Positions 12,036-21,307 of a DNA stretch of 64,000 bases are shown here, one piece after another. The DNA comes from Tropicimonas sp. IMCC34043 (GTDB lineage: Bacteria; Pseudomonadota; Alphaproteobacteria; Rhodobacterales; Rhodobacteraceae): contig NZ_QMEK01000001.1 of assembly GCF_003390845.1 (NCBI RefSeq), forward strand, positions 1,488,001 to 1,552,000, read 5' to 3'. The position numbers and the translations under genes are program-made. Under the pieces are notes generated by a model. That model worked only from the letters and a program-made list of their open reading frames with translations. It made no database searches and had not been told where the DNA came from. Every line of letters starts with the position of its first letter. Position 1 is the first letter of the stretch.

Positions 12036-13358
12036 TCAGCGCGCCAGAACGAGGCTGGCCTTGAGACCACCGAGCCGCGCGCTTTCCTCCAGCCGCAGGG
12101 TGCCACCATGACGGCGGGCAATGTCGCGCGCGATCGACAGGCCAAGGCCCACCCCCGACCCGCGATTCTGGTTGCGCGCCGGATCGAGCCGGGTGAAGGG
12201 GCGCATCGCCTCTTCGCGGCGCTCGGGCGGAATGCCGGGGCCGTCGTCTTCGACGCAGAAAGTCACCGTGCGCCGACCGAGGCTGACTGTGACCTCGGCC
12301 CGGGTGGCATAGCGCAGCGCGTTGCCGATCAGGTTGCCAAGCGCACGCTCCACAGCCTGGCCGCGCAGGACGACCGGTTGCTCGGTACCCGGCCCGAGGG
12401 TCAGCACCACCTCACCGCCGCTGCGCAGCGCCTTGTCCACCACGTCCCGGGCAAGCAGCGACGGCGCCACCGGCTCGGGATCGTCCAGTTGATCGCCGCG
12501 GGCGAAGTCGAGAAAGCCGTTGATCAGCGCCTCCATCTCCTCGACATCGCCCAGCATATCCGCGACATCGCCGTCGGGCGGCATCATCGACAGCGCCAGG
12601 CGCATCCGGGTCAGCGGCGTGCGCAGGTCATGACTGACCCCCGACAGCATCTGCGTGCGCTGTTCGATCTGCCGTTCGATCCGTGCCCGCATGTCGAGAA
12701 AGGCCCGCCCTGCGGCCCGCACCTCGATCGCTCCGGCCGGACGGTAGGACACGATCTGACCCTTGCCGAAGGCCTCGGCAGCATCCGCAAGCCGCGTGAT
12801 CGGCCGCAGTTGATTGCGCAGGTAGAGAAAGGCGATGCCGGTCATCAGCGCCCCGATCGAGATCATCAGCACGAGAAACTGATGTGGGTTCGAGGCCGAG
12901 GCGCGTTTGCGGTCGATCACCGCGTCCACGAGCCCGTGTCTGGTCTGGATCTGGACCAGAAGCTTGCGGCTCGACCCGGCCAGATCGACGGCGTGAACCT
13001 GATGAAGCCCTTCGCGCAGGGTCCGGATGATCATCCGCCCCGAGACGTCATAGAACTCGCGCCGGTCGCCGGGCAGTTCCTCGCCCGACGGCGACAGCTG
13101 CACGCCGAGCGTATTGGCAATCGGCGCCGCCGAGAGAAGCCCGCGGTGCAGGTTGTCCACCGCGTCGATCTGTTTGACGATCTCGCGCAGCTCCAGCACG
13201 ATGCCGCGGGTCAGCTGCTGGGTCACGTCTTCGAAGTGCCGCTGGATGAAGACCATCGACACCACCAGCATCAGCACCGTCACCGGCACGATCAGGATCA
13301 GCGCCGCGCGCCCATAGAGGCCGCGGGGCATGGATTGTTTGAGCCAGTCGAAATTCAT
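12036..13358 (-). CDS. EnvZ-like sensor histidine kinase
   Basis: 440 residues. TM1 is at about 18-38, a periplasmic loop spans about 40-160, and TM2 about 161-181. A HAMP segment (NQLRPITRLADAAEAFGKG) follows. His243 is in GVSHDLRTPLTR, and the ATP-binding boxes are LGNLIGNALRYA (N), EDDGPGIPPE (G1) and GSGVGLGLSIARDIA (G2). The layout is that of the EnvZ/OmpR class. No response regulator is adjacent, which is unusual for this class. It is divergent from the MBL-fold gene with only 34 bp between starts. Confidence 0.92.
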   Translation of the reverse strand: MNFDWLKQSMPRGLYGRAALILIVPVTVLMLVVSMVFIQRHFEDVTQQLTRGIVLELREIVKQIDAVDNLHRGLLSAAPIANTLGVQLSPSGEELPGDRREFYDVSGRMIIRTLREGLHQVHAVDLAGSSRKLLVQIQTRHGLVDAVIDRKRASASNPHQFLVLMISIGALMTGIAFLYLRNQLRPITRLADAAEAFGKGQIVSYRPAGAIEVRAAGRAFLDMRARIERQIEQRTQMLSGVSHDLRTPLTRMRLALSMMPPDGDVADMLGDVEEMEALINGFLDFARGDQLDDPEPVAPSLLARDVVDKALRSGGEVVLTLGPGTEQPVVLRGQAVERALGNLIGNALRYATRAEVTVSLGRRTVTFCVEDDGPGIPPERREEAMRPFTRLDPARNQNRGSGVGLGLSIARDIARRHGGTLRLEESARLGGLKASLVLAR

Positions 13359-13392
13359 GGCAGAAGGCTAGCGCCGCCATGGTGCGAGAGGA

Positions 13393-14328
13393 ATGACCAA
13401 ATTGCCCGAGCCCGCCTTCAGTTGCGTCACGATCCCGGAACCGGGCCTGCGCCGGGTGCTGGCGCCGAACCCCTCGCCAATGACCGAACGCGGCACCAAC
13501 ACCTATCTGGTGGGCAAAGGTGCTGTGGCCGTGATCGACCCCGGCCCCGACGATGCGTCCCATCTTCAGAAGATCCTCGGCGCGCTCGGCCCCGAGGAGC
13601 GGATCAGCCATATCCTCGTCACCCACGCCCATAAGGATCATTCGCCACTCGCCCGGCGGCTCGCCGCGCGCACCGGCGCCCCGGTGCTGGGATTTGGTCC
13701 GCACGATGCCGGGCGCTCGGCGCTGATGGAACACCTGGCCGCCGAGGGGCTTGGCGGCGGCGAGGGCATCGACGCGGACTTCCTGCCCGATCATGCGCTG
13801 GCCGACGGCGCCGTCATCGAAGGCGCGGGCTGGCGGATCGAGGCGGTCTGGACACCGGGGCATCTGTCGAACCACCTGTGCTTTGCCTGGCAGGGCGCGC
13901 TCTTTACCGGCGACCACGTCATGGGCTGGGCCTCCTCGCTGGTCTCGCCGCCCGATGGCGATCTGACCGCCTTCATGGCCTCCTGCGACCGGCTCGCGGC
14001 ACGGTCTGACCGGGTCTACTATCCGGGCCACGGCGCCCCGGTTCAGGACCCGGCCGAGAGGATCGGCTGGCTGATCGCCCACCGCAGGGCGCGCGAGGCA
14101 CAGATCCTCGCAGAGCTCGATGCCGCGCCGGCCGATGCCGCCACACTGGCGCACCGCATCTATCGCGACACCCCTGCCCCGCTGTTGCCGGCTGCGGAGC
14201 GTAACGTGCTGGCGCACCTGATAGATTTGTCCAGCCGCGGAATGGTCGCCCCGCTCGGCCCGCTCGGCCCCGGGACTGTCTTTCGCCCCGTCGCGGACGG
14301 CGACGGGATCATTGCGACAAAATCGTGA
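13393..14328 (+). CDS. MBL-fold metallo-hydrolase (LACTB2-like)
   Basis: 311 residues. The metal motif HAHKDH is at 78-83 (His78, His80, Asp82, His83). The later ligands are in WTPGHLSNHLCF and FTGDHVMGW, and in YYPGHGAPVQDP. The C-terminal part (about 215-300) is a helical winged-helix-like domain, as in LACTB2-type enzymes. It likely hydrolyses an ester or phosphodiester with two zinc ions; the substrate is unknown. It shares a very short divergent region with the histidine kinase. The tRNA-Asn gene follows 48 bp downstream. Confidence 0.87.
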   Translation: MTKLPEPAFSCVTIPEPGLRRVLAPNPSPMTERGTNTYLVGKGAVAVIDPGPDDASHLQKILGALGPEERISHILVTHAHKDHSPLARRLAARTGAPVLGFGPHDAGRSALMEHLAAEGLGGGEGIDADFLPDHALADGAVIEGAGWRIEAVWTPGHLSNHLCFAWQGALFTGDHVMGWASSLVSPPDGDLTAFMASCDRLAARSDRVYYPGHGAPVQDPAERIGWLIAHRRAREAQILAELDAAPADAATLAHRIYRDTPAPLLPAAERNVLAHLIDLSSRGMVAPLGPLGPGTVFRPVADGDGIIATKS

Positions 14329-14337
14329 AATCCCCTC

Positions 14338-14366
14338 TGGACGCCCCCGAGAGCCATTGCTATACG
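14338..14366 (+). promoter_or_regulatory. Likely promoter of tRNA-Asn
   Basis: TGGACG (14338-14343), 17 bp, then TATACG (14361-14366), placed 10 bp before the tRNA start. Confidence 0.55.
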
Positions 14367-14376
14367 CGCCCCGTGT

Positions 14377-14451
14377 TCCGGCGTAGCTCAGCGGTAGAGC
14401 AGTTGACTGTTAATCAATTGGTCGTAGGTTCGATCCCTACCGCCGGAGCCA
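14377..14451 (+). tRNA. tRNA-Asn (GTT)
   Basis: 75 nt with encoded CCA. Acceptor TCCGGCG/CGCCGGA, D-arm GCTC/GAGC, anticodon loop CTGTTAA with anticodon GTT, T-arm GTAGG/CCTAC with loop TTCGATC. All stems pair. The accessory region begins right after this gene, so its 3' end is the likely integration target. Confidence 0.97.
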
Positions 14452-14485
14452 AAAATCCCAAAGATTTCAGCTACATACGAAAAGA

Positions 14486-14500
14486 CCCGCCACTGGCGGG
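14486..14500 (+). terminator. Hairpin downstream of tRNA-Asn
   Basis: CCCGCC-ACT-GGCGGG, preceded by GAAAAGA and followed by CCTTG. It lies 34 bp after the tRNA and is a plausible terminator of the tRNA transcript. Confidence 0.55.
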
Positions 14501-14517
14501 CCTTGCCGTTTGGCTCT

Positions 14518-14537
14518 GGGGGAACACCGGGGGAACA
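14518..14537 (+). repeat. Direct repeat GGGGGAACA x2 near the tRNA-Asn junction
   Basis: GGGGGAACA at 14518-14526 and 14529-14537, 11 bp start to start. Short direct repeats of this spacing beside a tRNA 3' end are what integrase or excisionase arm sites look like. That reading is inference. Confidence 0.4.
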
Positions 14538-15098
14538 GATTCACCCCCCTCTTGGCGGTCTATCCCCTATGGCGCGGCGTGCGTAATTGGCGGGGAATGA
14601 GCGCGTAGTTGAACTATGGGGCTATGTTCCGGCAAGGTGCGAGTCGGCAAGCCATACCTCTGCAACATGACCGTTTTGGGTAGTTTCAGGGGAGCCACGT
14701 CGCAAAGCCTGCACTCGGACCGAAATCCCGATCAGATACGCGATAAGCAGAATCCGGAGGACGAGTTCGGGACCGCTTGTGTGTCGTCCAGTAGAGCCGG
14801 TTGAAAGTCAGCGATGCGCAAGGAGCGTTCGCTGCAAAGTTGCGAACCGAGGTCGGCCCAGACGACGTGACCGGCCCGAAGCCGCCGTCCGATGCCCAAC
14901 CTCGGTGTCGCGCTACGGCACGTCATTGCGGACCTTCGCCGCAACTGAAAAAATTAGGTGACGGGCGAACTCACACGTTGTGGGGCAGAGCTGTCGTTTC
15001 TAGTCTCGGGATCAATGACCAAGGCTTTTCGGGCTCATCCTTGGTTGCCCGAGCGGTCAATATGTTCTCGACACGAGGGGCGTTATCGGAGGGAAGTG

Positions 15099-15782
15099 AT
15101 GATCAACCTGAGTGTGGGCGAACGAGATGCCATTGAAGACATGGATGTGGATGCACTTCGAAATGCCATCGAGGAAGCACGGAAAGCGCACAGCTCGACT
15201 GCAGTGACCCGCCTACAGCTTTATCGCCTTGGCGCTTACGTTCAGGAAGCCGAACGGCGGTTCAACTTGGCATTGGCCAACCTACGCAAGGCGAAGGCCG
15301 CGGCAAAGATTGCAAGTGCTGAGCAAGAAGCCATTCGTGCCGGATGGGATCTCGCCTCAGCAGTCGATCAGATGAAGAATCGGGCAAGACAGGAGAGGCG
15401 CGATGGTGAGCGCTTTTGTGTCGATGACCACATCCACGAACCCTTCACGTTCCGACCAGAGATGACTGTCTCGGTTTCGTACCGCTGGCGGACCATGGAA
15501 AACGACGACTGGTCTTATGGTCGGATAATCTTCCATCACCAGCATGTTGCCCGGCCCCAGCTCGGGGCTTTCGCTGATCGGCGCAAGCTCACTGCGCGTC
15601 AGCGCGAGAACGAGCTATCGGAGGCGCTCCGCCGGGAGTGGTATCACATGCGCGATTTGGCACTTTTCAGCGTGAGGGATTTTTTCCGCGATGGTGGCAA
15701 CGGGGCCGACATCCCGGAGACGTTCGATGCCATCACTGATCGCGGCAGCTTGAATAACTTCAGTCTGAACTTCTGGGCATGA
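15099..15782 (+). CDS. Hypothetical protein, coiled-coil N-terminal half
   Basis: 227 residues after a clear GGAGGG site. Residues about 8-100 are Ala/Glu/Arg-rich and helical, probably a coiled coil, with LANLRKAKAAAKIASAEQEA as the densest part. The C-terminal half looks globular with aromatics (SYRWRTMENDDWSYGRIIFH). There is no signal peptide, membrane helix or recognised domain. It lies in the island behind tRNA-Asn, with lower GC than the flanking core, and converges with the OLD-ATPase pair. Function unknown. It may be cargo or a defence-related accessory gene. Confidence 0.7.
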   Translation: MINLSVGERDAIEDMDVDALRNAIEEARKAHSSTAVTRLQLYRLGAYVQEAERRFNLALANLRKAKAAAKIASAEQEAIRAGWDLASAVDQMKNRARQERRDGERFCVDDHIHEPFTFRPEMTVSVSYRWRTMENDDWSYGRIIFHHQHVARPQLGAFADRRKLTARQRENELSEALRREWYHMRDLALFSVRDFFRDGGNGADIPETFDAITDRGSLNNFSLNFWA

Positions 15783-15915
15783 CAACCTCGCAGCTGCCGA
15801 TCTCCACAGTGCAGCGTTTCGTGGGGCCATATTCGGGTAAATCCGTTGTTCACGGCCCAGACCGGACCTTCGCCGCCCAGTAAAATGCTGCAATGCAGCA
15901 GATCGAAAGCGGACA

Positions 15916-16329
15916 TCAAACCTGCTTTGATTTGCTACAGCTTTCGAGCCAACCAGCGATTGCGTCATGGAGCATCCATGGGGACGGGGCGCTGCACGTG
16001 ATATCTGAAGCTCCATTTGCAGTGAAGTGACACCACTCTTCGTCATCTGACACCCATTCGCCGATGATTTCGCCATCGACCAGCAACACGTCTCCTTTGA
16101 ATGCTTTATTGTGGTAGCCGAGCATTACGATGCCATGACGAACCATGCCGCCACTGTCGATCAAGTGGCAGATAGCTGCAAACAGAGCACGCAAATCGTC
16201 TTGCGAGCGCCCTGCAATTTGGCCAACCTCGAAGGAGCGGAATTTTAGTTTCCCAGTGAGTTGCTCGCTGCTATTGCCTTGTTCAACCTCACATGACAAA
16301 TCGCCTTGGCTCAACGTCTCAATGTGCAT
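15916..16329 (-). CDS. Hypothetical protein, partner of the OLD-family ATPase
   Basis: 137 residues, acidic, with alternating hydrophobic strands (GIVMLGYHNKAFKGDVLLVD and GEIIGEWVSDDEEWCHF) and a helical end (MLHDAIAGWLESCSKSKQV). No domain is recognised. It starts 11 bp after the stop of the OLD/TOPRIM gene on the same strand, and its ribosome site (AGGA) overlaps that intergenic stretch, so the two form a two-gene operon. The arrangement suggests an accessory or regulatory subunit of the ATPase. This is inference from position only. Confidence 0.72.
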   Translation of the reverse strand: MHIETLSQGDLSCEVEQGNSSEQLTGKLKFRSFEVGQIAGRSQDDLRALFAAICHLIDSGGMVRHGIVMLGYHNKAFKGDVLLVDGEIIGEWVSDDEEWCHFTANGASDITCSAPSPWMLHDAIAGWLESCSKSKQV

Positions 16330-16340
16330 ATTCCTGACGC

Positions 16341-18266
16341 CTATGCCAACGTTTCGTTGATACGCTTGAACAGCGCCTCGAAGGCATTCAACGTCTCGTC
16401 CGACAATGCGGCAACCCGCTTCGCGCGTTCTCGCAGCAAAACCTCCGCTGGGGCATTGTGGTCATATCGATCCACGCCTTCTTGGCGGGCGATCTGCCGC
16501 ACAATTGGGTCAGTGCCCTTAAGCTCCGCAGCCTTGAGCTTCTTACCGAACGCGGCGTTGTAGAGCGCCACATAGTCATCCTTGGCGAACAGGTCCTCAA
16601 TGTCGGCCATCTTCCGGTCGGCAACCTCACCGATGGTGACGATCCGCTTCTCCCCGAGGAAACCAGCCTTGGCGAGGGCAGTCAGCTTCTGGTGGCCCTC
16701 CTTGCGAGAATCCACCACGACCGTAACATCAAGGTGGTTGCCCAAGAGCGCGACAAAGGCAGGGATCACGTCAGCGCCTCCCAGCGGCATGATCGACCAG
16801 CGCTTGTCGAGCCCCTCGCGCCCGTCCTCAATCAGCCGCTCCGAAATGGTCTGCATGAACAGGAAGTCAGACGGCCCCTCAACCACGAGGTTGTCCTTGG
16901 CGATAAAAAGGTGTTGGGCGATGTCGTATCCGAGCGCTGCCTGTAGCGGGAACAGTGTGTCGCTGTCGGTGGTCAACACGTCTGAAGTAGTCACGGAGCC
17001 ACGGTCACGTCCCTTATCCTCAACAAGCCGCGCCCGCTCAAGGTGGTCTGGCTGGATCATGAAGGGCGAGTGCGTCGTGTAGATCACCTGACAGCGTTTC
17101 GACAACCGCTCCTCTATGAAGCGCAGGAAGTCGCGTTGAGCGGTTGCATGGAGCCCCAAGCCGGGTTCATCAAGGAGGATAATGATGGGGGTATCGTCAA
17201 ACTCATAACGGGAGAAGGCAGTCAGGAAGGAAAAGAACCAGCGAAACCCGGAGGAGCGTTCATCAAAGCGCAGGGAAAGTTTGTGCTGGTCGTCCCACAT
17301 TCTGATGTGGAGTTCATCAATGACAGTTGTTTGCCCGTTGTTGGCGGGCTGCTTCGTCAGCGTAAGGTCCATCTCCACGCGAAGGTGTTGATTGGTCGTC
17401 CAATAGTCTAGGACCTGTTCGCCCAACTCATTCGCTACATTCTGAAGTTCCCTTTTCCTGGTTTCATAGTCGGTATCAAGAAGATGGTCCTTCTCAAACT
17501 CAGCCAATTGGAGCAAGGCAAGCGCCGTTTGCTTATCGTCTTCAAGTTTGTCTTCATCGGCTTCCAGCAGTTCGCGGATTGGAACGGTGCTCGGGAGGCT
17601 GCTGTATTCCGAGAAGTAGAAGAATTGGGGCACCCGGGCGAACAACACACGCCAAACGGACTGCCAAAGTGTCGTGTCCTCCGGCAGCAATTCGTTGATG
17701 GCCTTCGTGACCTCCGCCAATGCGAGGGTGGTTGCGCTCGCCTCGCCTCCATCTGGCGAGAGGCTTGCGACTTTGGCGCGGAGGGTACTGAATGTCTCAC
17801 ACGAGTTGAGTGGTTCTAGGACCGTGGGAAGTTCAATATCTGCGAGCAGATTGACAACTGCTTTGGCCTCATCGACCTCAAAAACACCGGCGTATTTATT
17901 GGTGTATTTCCGCTCGATCGTAACCGTATCTGACAGCAACACATCTTCGCCAAACCTAGCTTCGACTGCCGCAACGTCCTCTGGCTCTATGGTGAAGGTC
18001 GCATTGATGGGGGACTTTTCGTCAAGGTCGCGTCCCTTCGCCTTCGCCTCCCGGCGATGCCTCTTCTCCAGCCAGGCGGGGTAATGTGTCGGTGAGGAAA
18101 AACTCGCTGCGCCCTGAGCAGGCTTGAGCCGTCGTAGCGCTTCAAGGAAGGCGCTCTTGCCGCTTTCGTTCTTGCCGACAAGGCAGGTGATGTCCGGCTG
18201 GATGGCAACCTCAGTCGAATCTAGCACGTGCTTGAAATGATCTATCCTAACTGTCTTGAGCTTCAT
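16341..18266 (-). CDS. OLD-family endonuclease: ABC-type ATPase plus TOPRIM
   Basis: 641 residues. ATPase: Walker A GKNESGKS (31-38), signature-like ERSSGFRWF (336-344), Walker B IIILLDEPGLGLH (361-373) and switch His in TTHSPFMI (398-405). The long insert at about 40-335 is helical. TOPRIM nuclease: Glu463 in VVEGPSD, Asp519 in VVVDSRKEG and Glu557 in ADIEDLF. The usual second Asp of the DxD pair is Arg521, which should be checked. Such proteins cut DNA and act in phage defence (P2 Old, GajA). No UvrD-like helicase is adjacent, so it is not a Gabija pair. ATG 18266 fits the family start MKLKTVRIDHF. It is lower in GC than its neighbours and in an island. Confidence 0.88.
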   Translation of the reverse strand: MKLKTVRIDHFKHVLDSTEVAIQPDITCLVGKNESGKSAFLEALRRLKPAQGAASFSSPTHYPAWLEKRHRREAKAKGRDLDEKSPINATFTIEPEDVAAVEARFGEDVLLSDTVTIERKYTNKYAGVFEVDEAKAVVNLLADIELPTVLEPLNSCETFSTLRAKVASLSPDGGEASATTLALAEVTKAINELLPEDTTLWQSVWRVLFARVPQFFYFSEYSSLPSTVPIRELLEADEDKLEDDKQTALALLQLAEFEKDHLLDTDYETRKRELQNVANELGEQVLDYWTTNQHLRVEMDLTLTKQPANNGQTTVIDELHIRMWDDQHKLSLRFDERSSGFRWFFSFLTAFSRYEFDDTPIIILLDEPGLGLHATAQRDFLRFIEERLSKRCQVIYTTHSPFMIQPDHLERARLVEDKGRDRGSVTTSDVLTTDSDTLFPLQAALGYDIAQHLFIAKDNLVVEGPSDFLFMQTISERLIEDGREGLDKRWSIMPLGGADVIPAFVALLGNHLDVTVVVDSRKEGHQKLTALAKAGFLGEKRIVTIGEVADRKMADIEDLFAKDDYVALYNAAFGKKLKAAELKGTDPIVRQIARQEGVDRYDHNAPAEVLLRERAKRVAALSDETLNAFEALFKRINETLA

Positions 18267-18929
18267 ACCCCTATCCCTCGAGCCTATTGCGCGCATTGAT
18301 ACGACATCGTGTGCCTGCCCGTCTTTAGGTTCAAGCTCAAATGGTGAAAATAGCGCGGCGCATACAACAGAAGCGGTCGCTGAAGCTCTGCTAAATTGTT
18401 GTCTACTTGCGTGCCGCTCAGGAGACCCACGGTTCATTGTACAAACGTTCAGCCCTTGCACTCGCGGCGAACGACCTCTTCCCTGAAGATCTGTCCCAAA
18501 ACAAGATCAACCAGAACTCTCGGTGTCGAAGGTCCGTTTTCGCGGTTTCTTCACATCCTCGCTGCGGCGCGGCGAGTTCAAACTTTCCGGCCGCCCTCCA
18601 CGTGTCGCGGCTGGACGTTGGTGCCCGCGAAGCGAACGGCAAATTTGGGCTGGCTCCGGACCTCCACCGCAATTCGTGCGAGGGTCCGGTCAGGGCCGTT
18701 CGCTCTGGTTGGGACAGCGCCCGAAGATGCCTGAAGCATCCTGCGCGTTGCCCGCCTGCGGCTGATCCGGAGCCTCGGAACGCCGAGGTCTCGGGGAACC
18801 CGGAAATCGCGCGAGATCTCGGCGACCGGGCTGATCGGCTTCCCTGCACTGAGGCGCCCTGCGTTACAGCAGGATTACAGGGCCGAGTTTCGTGATCGTC
18901 CCCCCACATGCGCCCCGCCCCACTTCACT
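18267..18929. other. Gene-less stretch inside the accessory region
   Basis: About 660 bases between the OLD-family gene and the phage-linked regulator. Open frames occur on both strands, but none has a ribosome site, a domain or a plausible protein composition. The part from 18,540 onward looks like degraded sequence. The OLD promoter should lie at its left end. Confidence 0.5.
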
Positions 18930-19748
18930 TCACAGCCATTGATGATGTCCGCCCCGCAAGACCCTGGCAGCCTGATCCAGCGCCTCCGGATCCTGCGTTT
19001 CGGCGGTGCGGTTGACGCTCCGCATGACGGTCGAGGCGTGGACGCCCGACGCGGCGGCGATCTCGCGAAAGCTTTTGCCCTCGTAGACGTGCTGCACATA
19101 CCAGGACAGATCGCGCTCCCCCGGCGCCTGCAGCTTGACCAGCCGGTAGCCGACCCCGTGTTCGGTCTCGATCCGACAGGGCGCGCCGTCGAGCTTTTTC
19201 CGGATCTTGCAGACAAAGACGTCGAGGATCTTCTGGTCGGGGGTATCGAGGGGGCGATCGGCATAGAGCCGTGCGAGCAGCGTCTCCTTGCCGATGCAAT
19301 TCCCGGCCGAGCGTTCGAGAATGCGGAACAGACGCGCCTCGCGCTGGGTAAACCCGAACCGCTCCATCAGCGGGATCAGATCGCGCGCGTCGTCTGCCAT
19401 AAGGAACGCGACGGTCTCGCGCGCGCTGGCGTCATCCTCGCCTGCCTCCTCGTGCGATCCCTGCATTTCCTGCAGCGCGTGCAGGATCAGGCCGACGATG
19501 GCCTTGGCCGACCGGGCGGGCCAGCCGCGCCGCTTCTCCATCGTCTCGAGCGGCTCGTCCCGCAGGATCGCGTCGTGCAGGACGCGATAGAGCGTCGGCG
19601 CGACGACGAAGGCGTTCGGGTTTTTCGAGAACCTGTGGGCGGCGAGGACCTGCTGTTCGGTCAGCAGACCCTTCCGCTTGAGCGCCACGATGTTCTGCAA
19701 GGGCTGCCGACGCACCATTCGAGCGCCTCCATTGTCCTGTTGCGGCAT
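18930..19748 (-). CDS. Phage-linked regulator: DUF6456-like module, CtrA-like winged helix and C-terminal HTH
   Basis: 272 residues. The N-terminal part ends YRVLHDAILRDEPLETMEKR then RGWPARSAKAIVGLILHAL (about 54-92), which looks like the closing motif of DUF6456. Residues about 133-204 are an OmpR-type winged helix. TPDQKILDVFVCKIRKKL and HGVGYRLV are very close to the DNA-binding domain of the cell-cycle regulator CtrA. Residues about 222-250 (GKSFREIAAASGVHASTVMR) are a further helix-turn-helix. There is no receiver domain. ATG 19748 follows GAGGATCC; Met11 is an alternative. Read in the same direction as the tail-fibre genes upstream. Confidence 0.75.
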   Translation of the reverse strand: MPQQDNGGARMVRRQPLQNIVALKRKGLLTEQQVLAAHRFSKNPNAFVVAPTLYRVLHDAILRDEPLETMEKRRGWPARSAKAIVGLILHALQEMQGSHEEAGEDDASARETVAFLMADDARDLIPLMERFGFTQREARLFRILERSAGNCIGKETLLARLYADRPLDTPDQKILDVFVCKIRKKLDGAPCRIETEHGVGYRLVKLQAPGERDLSWYVQHVYEGKSFREIAAASGVHASTVMRSVNRTAETQDPEALDQAARVLRGGHHQWL

Positions 19749-19758
19749 CGGATCCTCG

Positions 19759-20271
19759 TCAGGCCGCGGGCATCGTGCCGAGGACGCGGTCATAGAGAGC
19801 GTCGATCCAAGCGTCATCGACGCCGGTCGCGGCCGAGAACAGCGTTGCGGTGTCCGCGTCGCCGCGCACGAAGCGGGTCGCATATTCCCAGATCACCGCG
19901 GCCGGATCGTCGGCGGGCAGTGTCGCGACATGGCGCTGGACGAGGTCGAGCAGATTGCCCGCCTCGGGGAAGGCTGCGGCGAGCGGCGCCATCTCGGCAA
20001 TGTCTGCACGCCCGCGCAGGGCGAGCCGCAGCTGCACGGAAGACAGCTCGGCCGTGGTCCGCCAGCGCGCCAGCCGTTCGTCGTATGGATCGACGATTGG
20101 ATCTTCGAGCACCGGAACGCCGCCCGCCCCGGCGACGATCCGCTGGCCTGCGGCCTGTCCGGCCAGCAGGGCCGCATGCGTCTCGACAGAGATTTCGACT
20201 GCATCTTTGGGCAGGACGTCGGTGATCCGGCTGTCGTAAAAACCGCCGGTCGAAGCAGAGTAGCTGATCAT
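19759..20271 (-). CDS. Phage tail-fibre assembly-like protein
   Basis: 170 residues. The start MISYSASTGGFYDSRITDVL followed by VEISVETHAALLAGQAAGQ and GVPVLEDPI is the recurrent N-terminal pattern of caudoviral tail-fibre assembly (chaperone) proteins. The C-terminal half is helical and acidic. It sits one base after the tail-fibre ORF stop, the normal fibre-then-assembly order. No capsid, portal or terminase genes are near, so this is a remnant or a tail-only cassette. Family identity comes from pattern memory. Confidence 0.72.
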   Translation of the reverse strand: MISYSASTGGFYDSRITDVLPKDAVEISVETHAALLAGQAAGQRIVAGAGGVPVLEDPIVDPYDERLARWRTTAELSSVQLRLALRGRADIAEMAPLAAAFPEAGNLLDLVQRHVATLPADDPAAVIWEYATRFVRGDADTATLFSAATGVDDAWIDALYDRVLGTMPAA

Positions 20272-20272
20272 G

Positions 20273-20845
20273 TCATTTTCCCACTGCGAACCAGGTGAAC
20301 GGGACGGTTTTGTTGATCGTCGTGAAATGCAGCACGTCGCCTGTGAACAGGATCTGGGTCAGGGTGTTCGAAATCGACCCCATCACCGGCCAGCCGCCGG
20401 CGGCCGTGTTCACACCGTTCCGGGCGGTCGCCACGGCCGCAAACATGGCGCTCGGCCAGGCGGTCGGGAAAATCACCGCGACGGTCGACACCGTGTCGTT
20501 CGAGACCGGCAATGTGCCGGACCCCCATTGCAGGATCAGGCCGCCCAGCCACGACGGGAATTTGATATACCCATTTCCGTTCAGGACGGCGGCAAAGCCG
20601 GCCTTCACAGCCAGTGCGCCAAGCGCGGTATAAAGCCGGCCCGGCGACACCGCCTTCTCCGTTACAACCCCGGCATCGGCCTCGGCCTGCGTCGCAAAAT
20701 CGACCGCGAGCGTCCGGTTCTGGCTCAGATCGCCGCCGCCGGTCAGGCCGGATCCGGTGTCGACGTGCCGCTCGGCCGGCACGAACGCATTGACGCTGTC
20801 GATCCGGATCACGAGGTTTTCGAGGGTCGAGAACGCCACGATCAT
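20273..20845 (-). CDS. Phage tail-fibre fragment, probably cut at its 5' end
   Basis: 190 residues from ATG 20845. It contains HVDTGSGLTGGGDLSQNRTL, a widespread phage fibre motif, and a glycine-rich C-terminal domain of the gp53-like receptor-binding type (FPSWLGGLILQWGSGTL ... VPFTWFAVGK). There is no ribosome site before the first Met, and the frame runs upstream to about 20,872 and then stops abruptly next to the RND remnant. It is therefore likely the distal end of a longer fibre gene truncated by recombination. Confidence 0.65.
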   Translation of the reverse strand: MIVAFSTLENLVIRIDSVNAFVPAERHVDTGSGLTGGGDLSQNRTLAVDFATQAEADAGVVTEKAVSPGRLYTALGALAVKAGFAAVLNGNGYIKFPSWLGGLILQWGSGTLPVSNDTVSTVAVIFPTAWPSAMFAAVATARNGVNTAAGGWPVMGSISNTLTQILFTGDVLHFTTINKTVPFTWFAVGK

Positions 20846-20906
20846 GTCGGCGGCCGGACAACGACCGTGCAATGGCAGCGTGCCCAGGCCCGCCGGTCAG
20901 CCATCG

Positions 20907-21307
20907 ATGGAGGCCGCCGACGAGATCGGGATGGCGGTCATCGGCCTGCTCTTGCTGATGGGGATCGTCTCGAAGAACTCGATCTTGTTGGGGATTACGC
21001 GCGGCTCGCGCGCAAATTCGGCATGAATCGCTTCGATGCTCTGGTGGATGCCTGTCACCGATGCGCGCGGCCGATCGTCATGACAACGGTTGCCATGTCC
21101 GACGGGATGTTGCCCGCTGCATTCAGCCTCATTGAGGGGGATTCAAGCTTCCGCCAACCAACGGCCACTGTGGTGATCGGCGGACTGATGACGGCGACGC
21201 TGCTGCGCCTGCTCGTCATCCCCGTGGTCTGCACCCTCGTCGACGATTTTGAACGCTTCGTGACAGGGCAATTCCGCGCGCCGTCCAAACAAGGGCCCGC
21301 AGAGTGA
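20907..21307 (+). pseudogene. C-terminal remnant of an RND efflux permease, frameshifted
   Basis: Two frames together spell the last membrane helices of an AcrB/CzcA-type permease. Up to about 20,995 the frame reads DEIGMAVIGLLLLMGIVSKN and SILL. After a one-base loss the next frame continues DYARLARKFGMNRFDALVDA and later RPIVMTTVAMSDGMLPAAF and ATVVIGGLMTATLLRLLVIP to TGA 21305-21307. The first ~900 codons are missing. The left edge abuts the phage fibre fragment, so a deletion or recombination removed the rest. It is not functional. Confidence 0.8.

Follow-up and report, generated by a model that had tools for sequence, protein, structure and literature searches.

Class 1 OLD proteins such as P2 Old, TsOLD and Escherichia coli YbjD/OldB are single chains in which an ABC ATPase is fused to a TOPRIM domain, with neither a helicase nor a reverse transcriptase as partner. 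A 2023 review, in the portion consulted here, left open whether isolated proteins of this class defend alone (PMC10568477), and YbjD has since been reported with anti-phage phenotypes (excerpts of PMC13261556); in the same excerpts, YbjD gives its phenotype even without the TOPRIM domain, and a tRNA-cleaving activity is cited for P2 Old. HEC-04 and IbfA, single proteins with ATPase and TOPRIM parts, were also reported as anti-phage (PMC12111858, in part), and are likened to the present protein by description. Described here is an OLD-like gene for a 641-residue protein, followed closely by a gene for a 137-residue protein, in a 64,000-nucleotide stretch of the genome of Tropicimonas sp. IMCC34043 (contig NZ_QMEK01000001.1, positions 1,488,001 to 1,552,000), referred to as the window. 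The OLD-like protein resembles Class 1 in its fused domains and in having no helicase or reverse transcriptase partner, and differs from it in its small partner gene and in its length, the TsOLD chain 6p74 having 528 residues. We put at about even the chance that the locus encodes a Class-1-like OLD effector together with an optional, closely linked small accessory that tunes the output of the operon.

The OLD-like protein among known systems

The OLD-like gene (16341..18266, minus strand) is a single fused open reading frame (ORF) with an N-terminal ABC ATPase and a C-terminal TOPRIM domain, and its ATG start at 18266 and whole length are common to relatives of 69-97% identity. The small-protein gene (15916..16329, minus strand) follows after a gap of 11 nucleotides, both ORFs lying where the original prediction, made from the sequence letters and an ORF list, had placed them, on the same strand and with the same spacing. 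The ATPase motifs claimed there were found again, with Pfam matches to AAA_15 (1.5e-25) and AAA_21 (5.3e-19), Walker A K37, Walker B D366/E367, and an H-loop with a THSPF motif. The TOPRIM core also held, with E463, D467, D519, D555 and E557 present in a pattern conserved among the aligned relatives; since the Pfam model OLD-like_TOPRIM (PF20469) scored 21.8 bits, slightly below its cut-off of 23.2, sequence support for this domain is at the level of motifs. By profile, the nearest solved chain, and the best solved relative, was TsOLD of Thermus scotoductus (6p74, Class 1, 1.6e-12). An AlphaFold2 model of the OLD protein was moderate (predicted local distance difference test (pLDDT) 74, predicted TM-score 0.54), and matched SMC, Rad50, PtuA and GajA chains of the PDB with significant E-values and low TM-scores (0.2-0.5).

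The metal ligands of TsOLD, given in the consulted part of PMC7049728 as E377, D431, D433 and D381, S478, E480, were matched by motif, spacing and conservation to E463, D519, Arg521 and D467, D555, E557, respectively. Five of the six positions fit the expected TOPRIM ligands, and the position of D433, the second Asp of the DxD, is taken by Arg521 (codon CGC, 16704..16706, minus strand). A one-base change had been proposed at this place; the claim did not hold, the codon being two substitutions away from Asp. For the comparison, 11 proteins were chosen, including that of Roseibium (L021), with L009-L013 (E 1e-31 to 1e-45) left out, and the second Asp was absent in 10/11, the window's own protein included, the exception being L008. 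Damage to the DxD was rejected, the lack of this Asp being a subfamily trait; proteins of this subfamily may employ one of the two metal sites in another way, or have weak nuclease activity.

In PADLOC, the 641-residue protein matched the AriA, Old and GajA models, and the top match, as for a PARIS protein, was an AriA model covering the ATPase part (3.2e-27). In PARIS, however, ATPase and TOPRIM are encoded by separate genes, and the original prediction had set the locus apart from PARIS by its gene fusion. Since fused AriAB forms of PARIS exist (PMC10568477, same portion), fusion alone is no strict exclusion; the distinction itself stood, the protein scoring lower on fused AriAB (50.9 bits) than on Old (68.6 bits), with 94.3 and 70.1 bits on the separate AriA models. 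Gabija is similar in that GajA is an OLD protein (1.8e-15), and differs in its helicase: neither of the two downstream genes in the window matched a helicase in Pfam, PADLOC or NCBIfam, and inspection of the ORF list showed none among the remaining neighbours, in line with the earlier exclusion of Gabija. Membership of Gabija or PARIS was rejected on the absent helicase match, the fused ORF and the PADLOC scores. A Class 3 OLD system or retron was likewise rejected, RVT_1 (PF00078) having no match at E<=0.001 anywhere in the window's genome and Rfam showing only a tRNA in 13000-21000.

Recurrence of the pair and neighbours of the small gene

The pair of OLD gene and small gene recurs in three other records. 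On plasmid pow41 of Octadecabacter sp. SW4, the OLD and small proteins are 97% and 86% identical to those of the window, the gap is 15 nucleotides, and the pair has an IS66 element on one side and type IV secretion genes of this conjugative plasmid on the other. The corresponding values are 70% and 69% with a gap of 3 nucleotides in Rhodobacteraceae UBA6213, and 79% and 65% with a gap of 3 nucleotides in Roseibium aggregatum (L021). The Roseibium OLD gene (L021:1-1641) is disrupted in its 5' part, where the contig starts: another coding sequence and a stop come ahead of the OLD part, and this other sequence may be an IS3-family transposase. The small gene behind is intact. The ratio of nonsynonymous to synonymous substitution rates (dN/dS), compared with Octadecabacter, UBA6213 and Roseibium, was 0.10, 0.11 and 0.08 for OLD (the last over 480 aligned residues of the open part, the gene having an internal stop), and 0.33, 0.15 and 0.12 for the small gene, with synonymous sites near saturation in all comparisons except that with Octadecabacter. 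Both genes are under purifying selection, and therefore the pair does not consist of chance ORFs.

OLD searches covered 295 genomes of the source family and 367 of the class, plus 9 and 40 more. The distribution was sparse, with 9/295 family genomes (E<=1e-30) and 4/367 class genomes (E<=1e-60), each count including the source genome, and three non-self relatives of at least 60% identity (G049, G534, G328), of which G049 carries the small gene.

The small protein is acidic, and its relatives were found at 15 genome loci among 48 pattern hits in 84,980 species genomes, and in 8 plasmid records, all alphaproteobacterial; the 15 loci were found by two peptide patterns, and further members may be missed. 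The members found belong to Rhodobacterales and Rhizobiales-type families. The family was present in 4/295 genomes of the source family (own included, one match weak and partial), and profile searches gave 1/385 class genomes (own) and 2/299 phylum genomes (own and a weak match in G831, 6e-4); it looks rare, since these class and phylum searches gave no further good member. L005 (36% over 64 residues) and L036, which may be remote members, were not counted, and the copies in L028, L034 and L049 are truncated. All of the aligned small proteins (18/18) have an isoelectric point of 4.2-4.8, and in a tree of these 18 the OLD-linked members were not resolved into one clade.

As first described, the small protein of the window is of no known family, with nothing above cut-off in Pfam (where DUF6820 came closest, E 0.024), NCBIfam or PADLOC and no TOPRIM match found. 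For the 18 family members, the best Pfam match was Phage_Gp84 (E 0.00091, below cut-off); the best PHROG match was at 0.0013 and the best PDB sequence at E 0.62. The AlphaFold2 model of the small protein was confident (pLDDT 90.8), with strands and two long helices, and Foldseek matched it to no PDB chain and no viral model at E<=0.001; the top match, a PUR-repeat (E 0.02, TM 0.23), was too weak for use. Two further candidates were tried and rejected: a phage origin of the gene, since phage records gave no match at E<=0.1 and viral contigs no relative that could be confirmed, and an internal duplication, for which profile comparison of the two halves gave nothing. Literature searches returned, among the matches listed, no title or abstract start on the pair or on the small family. 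The small proteins appear to form an undescribed alphaproteobacterial family.

Neighbours were compared in 23 small-gene records, namely the window, the 15 genome loci and 7/8 plasmid records (H7 left out), with G049 and G270 treated as identical to L014 and L031 and counted once. A defence-type gene lies within 100 nucleotides on the same strand in 8/23, the partner being OLD in four, of PDC-S06 type in two, a STAND-like gene with SIR2 in one, and RosmerTA in one. The small family adjoins members of PDC-S06, PDC-S65 and RosmerTA, which are unrelated effectors. In both L032 and L033, a PDC-S06-type ATPase with Pfam AAA_13 overlaps the small gene by 4 nucleotides (L032, PADLOC PDC-S06, 1.2e-285; L033, scanned by Pfam only, AAA_13 1.6e-20). 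In an uncultured Litoreibacter (L024:1942-8195), the small gene is preceded, at 12 nucleotides, by a gene for a 1339-residue protein, and overlaps by 4 nucleotides a downstream gene for a SIR2 protein (PDC-S65, 8.4e-209). The 1339-residue protein matched nothing in Pfam (E<=0.01) or PADLOC (E<=0.001); its P-loop, GLDE and C-terminal ExK-like motif suggest a STAND ATPase that carries a nuclease domain, and the three-gene run is a candidate unrecognised defence operon. In Shimia (L025), RosmerTA (RmrA 2.7e-88, RmrT 6e-7) lies upstream of the small gene at a distance of 86 nucleotides. In a further four records the defence-like gene is on the opposite strand: PD-T4-5-like in L022 (5.6e-16) and, as a near-identical gene judged by eye, in L028; AbiEi/AbiEii in L023; and a weak SIR2 (6e-8) in L016.

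Explanations for the small gene

Should the locus be a Class-1-like OLD effector with a linked accessory, the ATPase would respond to infection, the TOPRIM domain would then cut nucleic acid, and the small protein would adjust OLD, most likely by restraint or sensing and not as a nuclease itself, its family having come to stand with several defence effectors of unrelated kinds in Alphaproteobacteria. The ATPase and TOPRIM half of this mechanism comes from knowledge of the OLD family, and the adjusting role from the close linkage, the purifying selection and the variety of partners. An anti-phage function and nuclease activity of OLD are inferred, as is any contact, physical or regulatory, of one protein with the other.

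Several results weigh against this account. Nuclease activity is uncertain because one TOPRIM metal ligand is missing. Relatives of the OLD protein at 69% identity (G534, G328) have no small gene within 1.5 kb on each side, and with 2/3 of the relatives of at least 60% identity in this state, OLD needs no small gene; as regards the small gene, OLD also stands alone in 5/5 actinobacterial plasmid loci fetched (42-44%, tblastn), in contrast to the window and the three other records with the pair. An obligate two-gene system is contradicted by G534 and G328. Nor is a recognised defence gene always close to the small gene, 11/23 records having none within 100 nucleotides on either strand: L029 and L030, where the small gene borders an integrase (overlap of 20 nucleotides in L029; recognised by eye only in L030); L031, with a cytosine methyltransferase 350 nucleotides downstream; and L015, L017, L026, L027, L034, L047, L048 and L049, among which the neighbours in L015 (one gene, Pfam only), L034, L047, L048 and L049 lie outside the PADLOC scans. 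As a control, 10 genes more than 2.5 kb away (in 10/15 genome loci, the first ORF from the left with 200 residues or more, a small sample) included one clear defence gene (DRT, L025) and one weak helix-turn-helix match, so part of the defence association reflects life in defence islands. The two-gene defence system of the original prediction was upheld as to its tight linkage, repeated in three other records at 3-15 nucleotides, and not as to a fixed pairing: the pair was found elsewhere in the genome search, and it is not obligate, OLD relatives at 69% being alone and the small gene also standing with other or with no recognised defence genes.

The small gene may instead be autonomous cargo of mobile elements, with a defence, counter-defence or plasmid function, collected in defence islands and playing no part in effector action, which we consider possible and somewhat less probable. 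Cargo is favoured by the copies, on Rhizobium plasmids and in other places, that have no recognised defence partner, as well as by the integrase neighbours in L029 and L030, the uniformly acidic character of the small proteins, and the fact that OLD, PDC-S06 and SIR2 relatives mostly occur without the small gene. At E<=1e-40, relatives of PDC-S06 were found in 815 plasmid records and those of PDC-S65 in 35, and the small gene was present in 8; because records with these relatives far exceed the small-gene records, most being without the small gene, the PDC-S06 and PDC-S65 effectors do not need it. Cargo would fit less well with the same-strand gaps of 3-15 nucleotides or 4-nucleotide overlaps beside OLD, PDC-S06 and SIR2 (86 nucleotides for RosmerTA), and with an OLD pair kept down to about 70% protein identity. 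The linked-accessory reading is ahead of this alternative and not firmly separated from it. We are more doubtful that the small family is a general plug-in immunity accessory in Alphaproteobacteria serving unrelated effectors (OLD, PDC-S06, STAND-like with SIR2, RosmerTA), in which case its protein would sense a common infection signal or restrain all effectors at the level of the operon.

Tight linkage and a small acidic protein would also suit an antitoxin or immunity protein that silences the adjacent effector until infection, and one partner, RosmerTA, is a toxin-antitoxin defence (PMC10440598, in the part consulted); but RosmerTA has its own antitoxin RmrA, the partners are structurally unrelated, and close OLD relatives (69%) manage without the small gene, which makes this explanation unlikely. 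A housekeeping role for OLD, as proposed for archaeal Cran1, with the small gene incidental, is very improbable given the sparse distribution in family and class genomes, the carriage by a conjugative plasmid, where IS66 and type IV secretion genes are its neighbours, and DNA lower in GC content (guanine plus cytosine) than its surroundings. At about 70% identity, members of the OLD subfamily occur both paired with the small gene and unpaired, a natural experiment on what the partner contributes. The small family itself is the more interesting point, adjoining defence genes of four or more kinds, and because it is found beside several kinds it may mark unrecognised defence operons.

Setting of the locus and further observations

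Across 15001-18000, taken in three bins of 1 kb, GC content was 0.54-0.57, and in bins outside 14-19 kb it was 0.61-0.72, confirming the lower-GC island that had been proposed. DNA similarity to a same-genus genome (G007) extends up to 14454 and then ends, so the lower-GC stretch probably starts at a tRNA-Asn (14377..14451, plus strand), which is the sole Rfam match in 13000-21000; this limit is consistent with insertion behind the tRNA-Asn. A second copy of the tRNA end was not found within the window, and no integrase was recognised by eye in the ORF list of 12-23 kb. A block at 15852..18594 (minus strand) is common to the window and pow41 in two pieces (94% and 89%); on pow41 (L014:3503-5837), the IS66 element is inserted upstream of the OLD gene and splits this block. 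Inverted repeats of 22 nucleotides around the block (15852-15873, 18678-18699) were set aside as probably due to chance (BLAST E 0.07 within the window). OLD and the small gene are presumably co-transcribed; a promoter scan of 15700-18600 gave no sigma-70-type site.

On the plus strand, a gene for a 228-residue protein with no assigned function (15096-15782) converges on the pair, and relatives of this protein were found in 26 plasmid records, including Serratia, Pseudomonas and Roseibium, with 36-40% identity in the eight listed. Stretches of about 120 and 150 bases (14567-14684, 14729-14878) are repeated on contig C13 of the same genome at 93% and 89%, and are perhaps mobile-element remnants. 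Upstream of the pair, a 317-residue ORF (18930-19883) had no PDB sequence match at E<=0.001, and to the right of the lower-GC stretch a 199-residue ORF (20273-20872, minus strand) presumably resembles a phage tail or fibre protein.

Elsewhere, an OLD protein of 36% identity (L007:1501-4353) adjoins a convergent PD-T4-5/AbiD-like gene (4.7e-21), the kind of gene that also faces the small gene in L022. The Shimia defence island (L025:205-7924) also holds a DRT UG13-type reverse transcriptase (5.9e-126) and a 461-residue protein without Pfam or PADLOC match. On the Rhizobium plasmids L017, L047 and L048, a conserved protein of 104-116 residues with no assigned function is encoded ahead of the small gene, 25-26 nucleotides before it or with an 11-nucleotide overlap, and in L016, L047 and L048 the small gene is followed by genes for an SOS-associated peptidase and a DNA ligase.

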